A stretch of DNA of 35,398 bases from Candidatus Eiseniibacteriota bacterium (lineage in GTDB: Bacteria; Eisenbacteria; RBG-16-71-46): positions 1-35,398 of the forward strand of contig VBOT01000038.1 of the NCBI GenBank assembly GCA_005893225.1, written 5' to 3'. The translations under genes were made by a program, and so were the position numbers. The stretch's first letter is position 1. Every line of letters begins with the position of its first letter. This document shows, one piece after another, positions 10,630 through 35,398 of the stretch. The notes under the pieces are model-generated. The model ran no database searches. It had not been told where the DNA came from and saw nothing but the letters and a program-made list of their open reading frames with translations.

Positions 10630-12669
10630 CTACACGCCGAACAGCTCCGCCTCCCAGACCAGACCGAGCTCGCTCGGCGGGGCCATGTAGCCGAGCAGGG
10701 CCGAGCTCGCGACCACCGCCGGGCTCGCGAGGTAGCCTTCACCGCCCACACCCATCCGGTTCTGCCAGTTGCGGTTGAAGCTCGTGATCGCGCGCTCTCC
10801 GGCCGACAGGGCGTCGGGACCCTGGCCGAAGCACGGACCGCACCACGACTGGCGAATCTCGCCGCCGACCGAGCGGAACACCTCGGCGATCGACTCGCCG
10901 CCGAGCCGCGGGTCCGGGTTCTCGATCTGCAGCTTCACTCCCCCAGAGCCCGGGAAGATCACGAACGGCTTGGCGGCGCGCCGGAAGCCCAGCGCTCGCG
11001 CCGCGTGGAGGACGAGCGCCGCCTGCAGCAGGTCATCGTAGCCGCCGTTCGTGCACGAGCCGATCAGCGCCTTGTCGAACGTGAGGCGCTCGCGCGCCAC
11101 CTCCTCGGCCGGGAACGCATTCCCGGGGCTGAAGGGCTTGGCGATCATCGGCGCCACCTCGTCCAGCGCCAGGGTCTCGTCGATCTCGTAGACCGCTTCG
11201 CTGCCGGGATGCACCCGGGGATACGGCAGCTCGCCGAACCCCCTCGCGCGATACCAATCGAGCGTGATCTCGTCGGGAGCGAAGATGCCGTTCATGGCCT
11301 CGCCCTCGGCCATCATGTTGGCGATGGTGTTGCGGAAGGCGATCGGGAGCTGGCGGTTCGCGTCCACCAGCTCGACCGACATGCCCTGCGACTGCCGCGG
11401 GCCCCAGCGCCTGAGCAGCGCGAGCACGATGTCCTTGCCGCTCACCCACGGCTGGAGCTCGCCGGAGAAGACCACGCGCCGCTGGCGAGCGACCGTGAGG
11501 TAGACGTACCCGGTCGCCCAGCCGAAGCCCAGGGTGGTGGAGCCGACTCCGATGCCGACCGCGCCGTAGGCGCCGTAGGCGCGGCTGTGGGAATCGGCGC
11601 CGGGGATCACTTGCCCGGGCAGCACCAGACCCTGCTCGGGGAAGTAGAAGTGGAAGATCCCGTCGCCGGGCGTGGCGTAGTAGGGCTTCCCGATGCCGTG
11701 GAGGCGCGCGAACTCGCGCCCGATCGAGGTCTGGCGTTCGTCGGCCTCCTTGCCGGTGAAGACGAAATGGTCGTTGGCGATCGCGGCCTGCCGCGGATAG
11801 AGAGCGTCGCCGCCGGTGATCTGGTTGAAGGTGTGGATCGCGAACGGAGCGGTACCGTCGGAGGCCGGCAGCAGGTCGGCGTAGACGCGCAGGGTCGCGC
11901 CCGGACGCACCTCGGCATCCTTGTCGACGCGATGCGCCCAGAGGATCTGCTCGGTGGTCGTGAGGCGCCGCGCGCTGTCGGGATCGGGCCACTGGATCCG
12001 CGGGGCGCGCTCGACCGACTCGCGGAGCTCCCTCCGGCCGGCGGCGAAGATCCCGCCGGAGCGGCGGATCTCCTCCTCCTTCGGCGCGAGGGGAACCGGA
12101 TCGTAGGTGGCGCCGCGGGTCTCGTTGGCGAGCCGGCGCGAGGTCGGATCGAAGCTGAAGACGTCGCCGTCACGGGCCTCGGCCACCGCCTCCGGGCACT
12201 GCAGCACGTGGAGCCCGAGGTTGTAGGCGTTGCGGCGGAAGATGTCGCCCACGTGGTTTCCGGCCACCACCACCAGCTCTAGCCCCGCCTCCTCGGCCAC
12301 GCCCTTCAACCCCGCGGGGCTCATTTCGCGCGAGGAGCCGATCGCGAAACGGTCGCCGGCGATCAGGAAGGTCTCGCCGCGGTGCACGCGCTCCCGGAAG
12401 TCGGGCATGAGGTAACGGAACGCGCCCGCCTTCCAGCGCTCGTCGAGGGTGTCGAGGCTCTCCGAGACGCAGTCGGACGCGGGCGTGATCTGGTCGGTGT
12501 CGATGGCGTCGAGCATCCGCCCCGGAGCCTTGGGGTCCCAGAGGATCAGGGCGCGGCCGCGCACCAGGCGCGGGACGCCCTGGCCGAGGGTGGCGTCGGA
12601 TGGACGCGGGCCCGGCAGGGAGTCCGCCGTCCTTCCGGGCTTGAGGCGGGCGGGCTGGATCGTGTGCAT
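10630..12669 (-). CDS. Aconitase superfamily protein, swivel domain N-terminal to the Fe-S catalytic domains
   Basis: N-terminal LeuD/swivel-like GDRFAIGSSREMSPAGLKGVAEEAGLELVVVAGNHVGDIFRRNAYNLGL; C-terminal catalytic GADSHSRAYGAYGAVGIGVGSTTLGFGWATG, ALIGSCTNGGYDDL, WCGPCFGQGPDALS. An alternative start lies at 12699. Confidence 0.88.
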   Translation of the reverse strand: MHTIQPARLKPGRTADSLPGPRPSDATLGQGVPRLVRGRALILWDPKAPGRMLDAIDTDQITPASDCVSESLDTLDERWKAGAFRYLMPDFRERVHRGETFLIAGDRFAIGSSREMSPAGLKGVAEEAGLELVVVAGNHVGDIFRRNAYNLGLHVLQCPEAVAEARDGDVFSFDPTSRRLANETRGATYDPVPLAPKEEEIRRSGGIFAAGRRELRESVERAPRIQWPDPDSARRLTTTEQILWAHRVDKDAEVRPGATLRVYADLLPASDGTAPFAIHTFNQITGGDALYPRQAAIANDHFVFTGKEADERQTSIGREFARLHGIGKPYYATPGDGIFHFYFPEQGLVLPGQVIPGADSHSRAYGAYGAVGIGVGSTTLGFGWATGYVYLTVARQRRVVFSGELQPWVSGKDIVLALLRRWGPRQSQGMSVELVDANRQLPIAFRNTIANMMAEGEAMNGIFAPDEITLDWYRARGFGELPYPRVHPGSEAVYEIDETLALDEVAPMIAKPFSPGNAFPAEEVARERLTFDKALIGSCTNGGYDDLLQAALVLHAARALGFRRAAKPFVIFPGSGGVKLQIENPDPRLGGESIAEVFRSVGGEIRQSWCGPCFGQGPDALSAGERAITSFNRNWQNRMGVGGEGYLASPAVVASSALLGYMAPPSELGLVWEAELFGV

Positions 12670-12854
12670 GCGCTGGGGAGCTCCGGGAAAAGGCGCCATC
12701 GCCGCCCTCGCGCGGCGCGACGTCGCTCGCGATCGTTCACGTGAGAGGCGTCACGAGGTCGGTGGGAACCGCTGGTATGCTACTTCGCATTTCGGAGCCG
12801 TGGCAATGCGGGCGCGGAGCGGCTCCCGAGCAAGGCTCACACGCGGGAGGGGCG

Positions 12855-13611: not shown

Positions 13612-14647
13612 ATGGACCCCAGCCTGCGCCTCACCTCGGCCGAAGCGCCGGAAAGCGCCTCCCCTGCTGCCCCACCCGAGCACGCCCCCGAGGGCGACCC
13701 GGAGCCGCTCGACGCCTACTCGCGCTCGGTGATCGCGGCCGTCGAGGCCGTGAGCCCCTCGGTCGTCAACATCGAGGTCCAGCCTCGAAACGGACGAGCC
13801 GCCGGCCAAGGCAGGCGCGGGGGATCGGGGGGAACCGGCTCGGGGTTCGTGTTCACGCCCGACGGGCTGATCCTCACCAACAGCCACGTGGTCCACGACG
13901 CCGGGCGGATCGACGTCGCTCTGGGAGACGGGACGCGTCTGGTCGCGGACCTGGTGGGCGACGATCCCGACACCGACCTGGCGGTGGTCCGCGTGAGTGC
14001 GTCGGGCCTTCAGCCGGTGCGTCTCGGTGACTCGAGCCGGCTGAGGCCCGGCCAGCTCGTGGTGGCGATCGGGAATCCGTTCGGATTCCAGACCACCGTG
14101 ACCGCCGGCGTGGTGAGCGCGCTCGGCAGGTCGCTGCGCTCGCGCTCAGGCCACCTGATGGACAACATCATCCAGACCGACGCCGCGCTCAATCCCGGGA
14201 ACTCGGGCGGCCCGCTCGCCACCTCGGCCGGCGAGGTGATCGGCGTCAACACCGCCGTGATCCTTCCCGCCCAGGGCCTCTCCGATCGACACGGCGCGAT
14301 TCGTGGCCGCGCACCTGATCCGCGACGGGCGCATCCGCCGCGGCTACCTCGGGATCGGCGGGCAGAACGTCCCGCTGTCCCGGCGGACCGCGCGCGTCAG
14401 CGGGCTGCCGGTCCCGAGCGGCGTGCTGGTGCTCACGGTCGAGCCCGGGAGCCCGGCGGAGAAGGCCGGCGTCCGGGTGCGGGACGTGATCGTCGAGTTC
14501 GACCACCATCCGGTCGGGACCGTCGATGATCTCCACCGGCTGCTCACGGAGCGCCAGATCGGCGTTCCGGCCGCCCTCACCGTGCTGCGGCCCACCGGGC
14601 GAAACGAGCTCGAGGTGGTGCCGCGGGAGTCTCCGCCCCGCGGCTAG
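13612..14647 (+). CDS. HtrA/DegP-like trypsin-PDZ serine protease, frame broken near 14282
   Basis: [78 protein letters not shown]...[23 protein letters not shown] in the +1 frame (ORF 14303..14647). Confidence 0.85.
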
Positions 14648-24872: not shown

Positions 24873-27583
<2,711 letters not shown>

Positions 27584-27970
27584 GGGGCGTCCTTTCCGGA
27601 TGCGAGGGCGCACAGGGCCCTCGGGCTAGAACGCGGGGACTCACAGGGTCCCCGAGGAACGGGTGGAGTATACACCCCGCGGGTGATGAACGGGGCGCGT
27701 GAGCGAGCAATGCCTGGGTCGCCCTTTCCAGGAGCTTTCATGCCTCTTTCCTGAGCCCGGCCCACGATCTGCCAGCAAACGGCTCGATCCGGGCCCGTGG
27801 GTAAGCGCATCCAACGGACATGATCCGCGGCGGCAAGTCCGGCAGCCTTCTCCCTTTCTTCAAACCCTTGCGGCGCGGCGCAGCCGTGGGCGCGAGCGTG
27901 CGCTTCTGAGCCGCCGGCGGCTCGCCCGCCGATCGCATGCGTCACTCACCCGGCGGGCGCAGACCGCGCC

Positions 27971-29850: not shown

Positions 29851-30633
29851 TCAATCGATTCGGCCTGGAACGGCGGGGCCGGCGCCGCGCCGCCGGCTGC
29901 GAGCCACGGCGGCCGAGCCGCCGAGAAGGATCGCCGCAAAAGTGAACCACTGGATCGCGTAGCTCACGTGCATGAACTCGTCGAGGGGCCGGGGCGGCCT
30001 CCGGAGCGGCTTCTCCGGGACGCCGTGGCCGGGAAGCTCGCGCAGCACCACCGGCGCCAGCGCGTACGGAAAGCGAGGGGCCAGCGAATCGAGGTCGAGC
30101 CAGCGCGCCGAGAGAAGCTGGACCGAATCGCCCGACATCGCGCGCAGGGACGGGCCGCCGGCGCCTCGCCGCAGCGGATCGGCCAGGCCGGTGACCTCGC
30201 GCTCGCCCGGCTCGGGATAGTCTCGAGGGCGGGCGGTCGCGGCGTCTGGGGCATAGAGCCACCCCCTATCGACCAGCACGGCGTGCGTGCCGTTGCCGAG
30301 GAGCAACGGAGTCACCACGTCCACGCCCGGCGCGCCGTCGTGCGCCCGGCCCGCGAGCAGGATCTGCCTGCGCTCGTCGAACCGGCCGCGCATCTCGAGC
30401 TTCCGGCCGCGCAGCGAATCGACGGGTGCCGAGATCTCATCGAGGGGGATCGGCCGCCCGGCCAGCTCACTGCGCAATCCCGTGTTGAGAGCCTGCTTCT
30501 CGTGCAGGCGCGAGATCTGCCAGAAGCCGAGGCGAACGCACAGGGCGGCGACGGCCACGACCAGAACCGGCCAGAGGAGCGAGCTGGGTCTCACGGGCGG
30601 GGGAGCGGTCGCCTTGCCGCCGGCAGGGAGCAC
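29851..30633 (-). CDS. SURF1 family protein
   Basis: LCVRLGFWQISRLHEKQALN, RGRKLEMRGRFDERRQILLAGRAHDGAPGVDVVTPLLL, VLVDRGWLYAPDA, C-terminal YAIQWFTFAAILLGG. Confidence 0.9.
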   Translation of the reverse strand: MLPAGGKATAPPPVRPSSLLWPVLVVAVAALCVRLGFWQISRLHEKQALNTGLRSELAGRPIPLDEISAPVDSLRGRKLEMRGRFDERRQILLAGRAHDGAPGVDVVTPLLLGNGTHAVLVDRGWLYAPDAATARPRDYPEPGEREVTGLADPLRRGAGGPSLRAMSGDSVQLLSARWLDLDSLAPRFPYALAPVVLRELPGHGVPEKPLRRPPRPLDEFMHVSYAIQWFTFAAILLGGSAAVARSRRRGAGPAVPGRID

Positions 30634-33129: not shown

Positions 33130-34320
33130 ATGACCACGTTCCTCGAAGAGCCGATCGCAGCCGCGCCTTCATCGACGGCGCTCCGCGCGCGCGTGCCCGG
33201 GTACCTGGCCGCCACGGCGCTGGCGTCAACCAGCGTGATCGTGGGGCTTCTCTGGGACATCTCCTGGCATCGCACCATCGGGCGCGACCGGTTCCTCACC
33301 CCGGCGCACCTGGCGATCTACCTGGGGGGCCTCGTGGGAGGCCTGGCCTCCGGAGCGCGGGTGCTCAAGACCACCTTCGCCGGATGCCCCGAGGAGCGCG
33401 CCGCGAGCGTCGGCTTCTGGGGCTTGCGCGGGCCGCTCGGCGCCTGGCTCTGCATCTGGGGGAGCTTCGCGATGCTGACCTCGGCGCCGTTCGACAACTG
33501 GTGGCACAACGCCTACGGGCTCGACGTCGAGATCCTAAGCCCGCCGCACACGGTCCTGGGACTCGGGATGATCGCGATCGAGATGGGCGCGATGCTGCTC
33601 GTGCTCGCGCATCAGAACCGCGCCGGTGGGGCTTCCTCGGCTCTCGGATGGCTCTACGTCTACTGCGCCGGCATCGCGCTCCTCATGGCGGCCACGATCG
33701 CGTGGGAGTACACGGGGTTCCCGAACATGATGCACAGCGCACTGTTCTACAAGGTGAGCGCGGCAGCGTTCCCGCTCTTCATGATCGGACCGGCGCGGGC
33801 CGCCGCGATACGCTCGCCGGTCACGGCGATCGCGGCGGTCTACACCGGTCTCACGCTCGCGATGATGTGGATCCTCCAGCTCTTTCCCGCCACGCCTCTG
33901 CTCGGCCCGATCTACAACCCGGTGGGCCACATGCAGCCGCCCACCTTCCCGCTCCTCCTGGTCGTTCCGGCGGTGGCGCTCGACCTGCTCCTCGAGCGTC
34001 TCGGCGGCCGGAGCAAGTGGCGGCTCGCTGCTGCGCTTGGCGTCACGTTCGTGCTCTCGCTGCTCGTGGTGCAGTGGTTCTTCGCCGAGTTCCTGCTCTC
34101 CCCCGCGGCGCGAAATTTCGTCTTCGCCGCGGATCACTGGAACTACGGCTCGCGTCTCGGCCCGTGGCGCTACGAGTACTGGAATCTCGACCGGGACGGC
34201 GCGGGCCGCTGGAGCGGTGCGCGCTTCGCGCTCGGCATCGTCTGGGCCATGGCCGTCGCCACCGTGACCTCGAGGGTCGGCCTCGGCTGGGGCGCATGGA
34301 TGGCCAGGGTCAGACGATGA
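33130..34320 (+). CDS. Polytopic membrane protein with duplicated WH...PxH motif, unknown function
   Basis: Many hydrophobic segments; WDISWHRTIGRDRFLTPAHLAIYLGG and FDNWWHNAYGLDVEILSPPHTVLGLG. Confidence 0.8.
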   Translation: MTTFLEEPIAAAPSSTALRARVPGYLAATALASTSVIVGLLWDISWHRTIGRDRFLTPAHLAIYLGGLVGGLASGARVLKTTFAGCPEERAASVGFWGLRGPLGAWLCIWGSFAMLTSAPFDNWWHNAYGLDVEILSPPHTVLGLGMIAIEMGAMLLVLAHQNRAGGASSALGWLYVYCAGIALLMAATIAWEYTGFPNMMHSALFYKVSAAAFPLFMIGPARAAAIRSPVTAIAAVYTGLTLAMMWILQLFPATPLLGPIYNPVGHMQPPTFPLLLVVPAVALDLLLERLGGRSKWRLAAALGVTFVLSLLVVQWFFAEFLLSPAARNFVFAADHWNYGSRLGPWRYEYWNLDRDGAGRWSGARFALGIVWAMAVATVTSRVGLGWGAWMARVRR

Positions 34321-35398
34321 CCGCAGCGCCGGCCGGGATCGGGAGGCGCAAGGCCACCGCAACGGCCCTCGGCTTGGCGCTGGCGATCGGCTCCTGGTGG
34401 GGAACCTCCCGTGCGCACGTCGGCAGCCCCGACACGTGGTTCGAGGGCCCCGCCGGCCGCTACCCGGTGCGCGTTGTGGTGCGCGCGCCCGGGGTCGTGC
34501 CCGGCCTCGCCGAGATCGACGTCAGGGTGCTCGCGGGACGTCCCACCCGCGTCGCCGTCCAGCCGTTCATCTGGAACGGCGGCGCCGACGCGGCGCCGCC
34601 ACCCGAGAACGCGCTCCCGGTGCGGGGCGACCCCCGGCTCTTCGACGCCCACCTGTGGTTCATGGTCGCGAGCTCCTACGCCGTGCACGTGACCGTGTCC
34701 GGCGACCGCGGCGCCGGCAAGGCGATCGTGCCGGTGCAGGTGGTCGCCACACGGCGGTTGCCCATGAGCCCCGCGCTGGGCGGGTTGCTCGCGGCCCTCG
34801 GACTCTTCCTGCTCGCGGGGTTGCTCACCTTCCTGGGCGCCGCGGCCGGCGAGGGGGTTCTTCCGCCGGGCGAGCCGATCGACGCGAGTCACCGCCGCCT
34901 CGCCCGCGTGGTCGTGACCGTCTCGGCCGCGATCCTCGCCCTGGCACTCGCCGGCGGGCGGCAGTGGTGGAACGCCGTCGACCGCGCCTACCGGCAGAAC
35001 CTCAACCGGCCGCTCCACGCCGCCGCCACGCTGCTCGCGCGCGCGCCCGCACCCGTGCTCGGCATCGCCATCGACGACCCCGAATGGATGGGGCGCCGGT
35101 GGACGCCCCTGATTCCCGATCACGGAAAGCTCATGCACCTGTTCCTGATCCGCGAGCCGGGGCTCGACGCAATGGCCCACCTGCATCCCCTGATGCGCGA
35201 CTCGAGCCACTTCGAGTCTCCGTTGCCGCTACTCCCGGCCGGGCACTATCGGGTCTACGCCGACGTCGTTCACGAGAGCGGCTTCGCCCGTACGCTCGTC
35301 GCCTCGCTGGATCTCAGGCCCGGCGGCGGAGCGGCCACCCCATCCGAGGCCAGCGGGGACACCCCGGGGGCCGACCCCGACGACTCGTGGTACGTGGG
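34317..35398 (+). CDS. Exported YtkA/FixH-like protein, 3' end cut by the window edge
   Basis: Not in the ORF track because no stop lies before the edge; translated by hand: MTAAPAGIGRRKATATALGLALAIGSWWGTSRAHVGSPDTWFEGPAGRYPVRVVVRAPGVVPGLAEIDVRV...LIPDHGKLMHLFLIREPGLDAMAHLHPLMRDSSHFESPLPLLPAGHYRVYADVVHESGFARTL. Start overlaps the previous stop (ATGA). Confidence 0.82.
   Translation, partial: MTAAPAGIGRRKATATALGLALAIGSWWGTSRAHVGSPDTWFEGPAGRYPVRVVVRAPGVVPGLAEIDVRVLAGRPTRVAVQPFIWNGGADAAPPPENALPVRGDPRLFDAHLWFMVASSYAVHVTVSGDRGAGKAIVPVQVVATRRLPMSPALGGLLAALGLFLLAGLLTFLGAAAGEGVLPPGEPIDASHRRLARVVVTVSAAILALALAGGRQWWNAVDRAYRQNLNRPLHAAATLLARAPAPVLGIAIDDPEWMGRRWTPLIPDHGKLMHLFLIREPGLDAMAHLHPLMRDSSHFESPLPLLPAGHYRVYADVVHESGFARTLVASLDLRPGGGAATPSEASGDTPGADPDDSWYV

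Follow-up and report, generated by a model that had tools for sequence, protein, structure and literature searches.

Two overlapping genes at the end of the window

The stretch of DNA analysed here, called the window below, spans bases 1-35,398 of a contig that is 49,887 bases long. At its end lie two genes on the forward strand, designated A and B. Gene A encodes an integral membrane protein, and the start codon of gene B (ATG at 34317) overlaps the stop codon of A (TGA, 34318-34320) as ATGA, just as the initial annotation of this DNA had read it. In the assembly, B is interrupted at the window edge by a 104-N scaffold gap (contig 35399-35502). Past this gap, beyond the sequence available to that annotation, the contig resumes B with a second HLHP domain (MPAHAVVTRVDGSVFAHLHP) and a TGA stop codon at contig 35922-35924. 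The features of the two genes are as follows.

33130..34320, + strand: gene A, integral membrane protein of 396 aa with about 9-10 helices, of which the N-terminal four form the half that carries the PmoC/AmoC-like copper motifs
33256..33309, + strand: motif 1 of A, D43-x3-H47-x5-D53-x6-H60 (DISWHRTIGRDRFLTPAH); CuC ligand spacing of PmoC, invariant in 83/83 aligned relatives
33493..33549, + strand: motif 2 of A, D122-x3-H126-x5-D132-x7-H140 (DNWWHNAYGLDVEILSPPH); CuD ligand spacing of PmoC
33625..34317, + strand: C-terminal half of A (roughly residues 166-396), with additional TM helices and a weak, unproved likeness to AmoA
34317..34320, + strand: ATGA overlap of the B start and the A stop
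34317..35398, on to contig 35924, + strand: gene B; signal peptide, His-1 beta domain, two TM helices and two HxHP beta domains
34317..34415, + strand: predicted signal peptide of B, cleavage between SRA and H; position kept in 80/80 relatives
34416..34418, + strand: codon of the predicted mature residue 1 of B, a His invariant in the alignment
34416..34754, + strand: N-terminal periplasmic beta domain of B; invariant H1, W and M, without a second conserved His
34767..34994, + strand: two TM helices of B, limits approximate (AF2 model of the relative L042, and alignment)
35052..35318, + strand: first HxHP beta domain of B (PDHGKLMHLFL...AHLHP), with four conserved His
35370..35397, + strand: conserved DPDD linker of B, preceding the second HxHP domain, which is located past the gap

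Several other genes in the window were identified by eye. A SURF1-like ORF (a cytochrome-oxidase assembly factor; 29851-30633, - strand) lies 2.5 kb from A, and this neighbour is not kept near the A/B pair in relatives. An aconitase-like gene occupies two frames (26318-27613 and 24873-26400, both on the - strand), apparently owing to a frameshift in either the assembly or the genome, and a second 3-isopropylmalate/aconitase-like ORF is found at 10630-12699. An HtrA-like protease (13612-14529 and 14303-14647, + strand) shows an apparent frameshift near 14290, with its PDZ part in the other frame.

Conservation of the pair and of the N-terminal histidine

When 85,462 species genomes were scanned with the A alignment, at least 548 relatives came up, and the best 80 were analysed. 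These 80 come from at least six phyla: Gemmatimonadota, Acidobacteriota, Verrucomicrobiota, Planctomycetota, Bacteroidota and Eisenbacteria. A search for related loci with protein B alone found nothing. The annotated records of the family that we inspected carry "hypothetical protein" or no annotation, and the open-access literature on PmoC-like and remote CuMMO families contained no description of the pair.

B lies directly downstream of A in 78 of the 80 loci; of the other two, L033 stops at a contig edge and L069 has A without B. The distance from the A stop to the His codon is short (median 61 nt, range 48-262), so the start and stop codons are usually close or overlapping. Distances among the A proteins and among the B proteins co-vary (r=0.89), a value reached by 0 of 500 permutations, and both the pair and the His are retained in a same-family relative (59% for B) as well as in one from another phylum (36%). 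The proposal that the genes form a coupled two-protein periplasm/membrane module is thereby upheld. The same annotation had looked to co-occurrence with cox/SCO/FixH genes, and here it fared badly: no third gene is conserved around the pair across the 80 loci. The commonest neighbour occurs in 11 loci (in L053 it is a penicillin amidase) and looks to be shared by lineage only. The neighbourhood therefore implies neither cox/SCO genes nor a catabolic pathway. One locus, from a Mongoliibacter MAG (L076:5049-9182), has a tandem A-B-A arrangement, in which the pair is followed by another A.

The N-terminus of B (MTAAPAGIGRRKATATALGLALAIGSWWGTSRA, followed by HVGSPDTWFEG) has a basic n-region, a hydrophobic stretch and S-R-A at positions -3 to -1. 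Across 80 aligned B proteins the segment ahead of His-1 is hydrophobic and signal-peptide-like, the residue at -1 is A in 53, G in 16, S in 10 and P in one, and every one of the 80 has His as its predicted mature residue 1. Judging from the position after the signal peptide, B would be cleaved before His-1, and the N-terminal His that had been proposed is borne out by position, with the cleavage itself predicted. It had been likened to the "histidine brace" of CopC and LPMO proteins. A histidine brace needs a second His; His-1 is the only conserved one in the N-terminal domain (the first 113 residues), since no other column among residues 2-113 has His in 15% or more of the sequences. A CopC/LPMO-type brace within that domain is thus not supported.

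Seven further conserved His are found in the two C-terminal domains of B, with an H...HxHP pattern in each. The C-terminal His/Met segment singled out previously (DHGKLMHLFLIREPGLDAMAHLHP) is present in B, and its four His are kept in 62-63 of 63 sequences; the YtkA/FixH identity assigned to it did not hold. The B family gives sub-threshold YtkA and CopC matches (family-wide best YtkA 1.5e-4, in 12/63 members). When ten members were scanned singly, YtkA matched one of them, L018, at residues 14-92 (E=0.0067, below the cut-off), which belong to the N-terminal domain; the C-terminal domains gave no match. B is thus like CopC/YtkA-like domains in its N-terminal His (CopC), its beta-rich domain and weak HMM matches, and unlike them in having no second His and matches below the cut-offs.

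The AF2 model of the mature B relative L042 has a pLDDT of 94.4. A Foldseek search with the whole of B returned nothing more specific than Ig/FN3 multi-domain proteins such as complement C3/C5, and none of the 50 matches listed is an AMO chain. The N-terminal domain matched "copper resistance protein" weakly (9ll2, E 0.0056). Taken as sequence evidence, the conserved residues support the metal-binding character ascribed to the module.

PmoC/AmoC-like motifs in gene A

The initial annotation missed both PmoC/AmoC copper-ligand motifs in A, and these change the interpretation of the module. The PmoC ligands are D156/H160/H173 for CuC and N227/H231/H245 for CuD (PMC12576850). In A, D43, H47, D53 and H60 together with D122, H126, D132 and H140 are kept in 83/83 aligned relatives, and the motif spacings, 4/13 and 4/14, are identical to those of the CuC and CuD ligands. 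The CuC ligand set D-x3-H-x12-H is present as the invariant D43, H47 and H60. At the CuD position H126 and H140 are invariant and correctly spaced, but Asn is replaced by Asp. The double motif [ND]x3Hx12H...[ND]x3Hx13H was found in all A open frames (87/87, some of them counted twice), in 7/7 annotated AmoC proteins and in 4/4 actinobacterial relatives, but in only one ORF of a background of 8387. The motifs are separated by 53-55 residues in AmoC, 52-53 in the actinobacterial relatives and 60-64 in A. Beyond the ligands, motif 1 of A has W, R-D and usually T-P in common with AmoC proteins encoded on plasmids, and motif 2 an acidic residue and P.

Single A and B proteins gave no real family match in Pfam or NCBIfam, and single-sequence searches of the PDB with A or B gave no match. 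With a profile of A against all of the PDB, the sole significant match was AMO subunit C (E=0.0017), on motif 1. Among Pfam families AmoC matches the most members (7/61, best E 0.014, below the cut-off), and an AmoC scan of 19 whole genomes matched the A gene only (residues 43-65, E 0.89, below the cut-off). A direct hhalign comparison of A with AmoC gave P=1.1e-5, with an alignment that runs through both motifs; its score was 47.0, whereas 100 column shuffles did not exceed 25.9 and the reversed profile scored 14.5. Shuffles of 20-column blocks that preserve motif 1 can reach an equal score, which indicates that the sequence signal shared by A and AmoC is local, mainly in the motifs, and counts against a CuMMO reading. 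A BFVD search with A gave nothing meaningful, and an AmoC peptide search in phages gave chance matches only.

The AF2 model of A has a pLDDT of 93.5. Foldseek ranked an AMO chain, chain B, first with this model (probability 0.99, but E=0.2). This chain is not subunit C, and we take it to be AmoA, a candidate by chain length alone. The C-terminal half of A aligned with AmoA weakly and collinearly in hhalign (P=0.0042, which is not significant) and, used alone, had no sequence match in the PDB. A C-A-B order would fit a C-A fusion followed by B; the AmoA likeness is too weak to claim such a fusion. PmoA (PF02461) had no match in this genome. Comparison of B with PmoB by hhalign was negative (P 0.054), and the PF04744 (PmoB/AmoB) search gave no match, but none in the controls either.

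In four actinobacterial relatives the PmoC-like membrane part and a periplasmic domain are joined in one chain. These fusions are plasmid-borne and annotated as hypothetical (L097:3914-5359, L099:3986-5455, L100:3986-5413, L101:3992-5482). In all four, A-x-A closes the helix that leads into the periplasmic domain and is followed directly by an invariant HDPGQG; a signal-peptidase-like site before the His thus appears to survive, and the fusions may be cleaved there too. An independent profile built from these proteins matched only AMO subunit C in the PDB, in three structures (E 0.016, 0.12 and 0.16). The L101 (Leifsonia) fusion adjoins a metal-sensitive regulator, heavy-metal P-type ATPases and YHS genes, L099 (Mycolicibacterium) lies near a BlaI/MecI/CopY-type regulator and CcdA, and L100 near ResB/CcsB. 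Genome G129, from another phylum, encodes three proteins with PmoC-like motifs, solitary or divergent; its copies at L107:4735-6303 and L108:4400-5563 (523 aa and 388 aa) have no obvious B partner. Such copies in a further phylum indicate that the PmoC-like core is a broader superfamily.

Possible functions of the pair

The known copper membrane monooxygenases (CuMMOs) are assembled from three core subunits, and the organisms that have them oxidise methane, ammonia or short alkanes. A resembles their PmoC/AmoC/HmoC subunit (PF04896) in the two CuC/CuD-spaced motifs, the W, R-D and P residues and a similar inter-motif distance. It differs in having 396 aa and about 10 helices, where PmoC/AmoC/HmoC has 5-6, and Asp for the CuD Asn; it falls below the Pfam cut-off and occurs mostly in phyla other than those of known methane and ammonia oxidisers. 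B shares with PmoB/AmoB the order of its parts (PMC12576850): a signal peptide, an N-terminal His, a beta domain, two TM helices and a C-terminal beta part, encoded directly downstream. Unlike PmoB, it has two C-terminal domains and no sequence similarity, and where the CuB site combines the N-terminal His with HxH, the HxH of B is confined to the C-terminal domains, away from His-1. The relation of B to PmoB is thus one of resemblance, not membership. Gene order and architecture together recall pmoC-(A)-B.

We therefore think it probable that A and B make up one membrane-bound copper complex, a distant relative of the CuMMOs (pMMO/AMO). A would supply a four-helix core whose two copper sites correspond to CuC and CuD in subunit C, and B a periplasmic part anchored by two helices, its mature N-terminus a His as in PmoB. 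The two three-His (H, HxH) domains of B could hold or hand over copper. Such a complex would most likely use copper in redox or oxygen chemistry on a small substrate, although the oxidation chemistry and the substrate are guesses. Against this reading we count the Asp for Asn at CuD, the sub-cut-off AmoC matches, the Foldseek E of 0.2 with a top-ranked AMO chain other than C, the lack of a detected PmoA or PmoB homologue and of AMO chains among the 50 Foldseek matches listed for B, the absence of a second His in the B N-terminal domain, the copper-handling neighbours of an actinobacterial relative, and the absence from the 80 loci of any metabolic neighbour that would name a substrate.

The strongest alternative, a serious rival even though we regard it as rather unlikely, is that the pair serves copper acquisition, storage or insertion. 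A would then move or hold copper by its PmoC-like sites and B catch periplasmic copper via His-1 and the HxH domains; CuMMO ancestry might be shared, with no substrate oxidised. The metal- and copper-type, CcdA and ResB/CcsB genes near the L101, L099 and L100 fusions keep this role open, and the weak matches of the B N-terminal domain to 9ll2, YtkA and CopC point the same way. A precedent is provided by the anglerases, N-terminal-His domains appended to permeases (PMC12537917). As described there, Ang-1/Ang-2, DUF4198 and DUF6702 resemble B in exposing an N-terminal His on a secreted domain, in some cases on membrane permeases; their membrane partner differs from A. However, no copper-resistance neighbour is conserved in the 80 paired-type loci, and the CuC and CuD motifs are both strictly kept, including the one proposed as the catalytic site of pMMO (PMC12576850). 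On balance the CuMMO-like complex is modestly favoured over copper trafficking.

It is improbable that the D-x3-H-x12/13-H motifs are convergent, in a membrane metal protein without CuMMO descent: the similarity is concentrated at the motifs and the fold match is weak, but two branches agree in both motifs, in the order and spacing of these, and in the non-ligand residues (W, R-D, T-P, P). A CopC/YtkA/FixH-like copper chaperone pair for cytochrome oxidase assembly, which the N-terminal His, the sub-threshold YtkA/CopC matches and the SURF1-like ORF might suggest, is very unlikely and already largely refuted, given an N-terminal domain without a second His, C-terminal domains without a YtkA match and, on which ground we rejected it, no cox/SCO/FixH linkage across the 80 loci.

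Within the preferred reading of a CuMMO-like complex, a bolder and doubtful version takes A for CuMMO subunits C and A naturally fused into one protein, and B for a subunit B that has been rebuilt. The pair would then be a minimal two-polypeptide monooxygenase with a new substrate, a deep and so far unrecognised branch of the superfamily in Gemmatimonadota, Acidobacteriota, Verrucomicrobiota, Bacteroidota, Planctomycetota and others.

The catalytic copper site of CuMMOs is still debated. More than 500 loci with the CuC and CuD motifs but only two genes would offer a tractable system for asking what these sites do, and the family occurs partly in culturable Bacteroidota (Belliella, Indibacter and Chondrinema among them). 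If the relationship is true, annotation greatly understates how widespread PmoC-like proteins are, and our findings suggest that the A/B pair represents a widespread, overlooked relative of the methane and ammonia monooxygenases.
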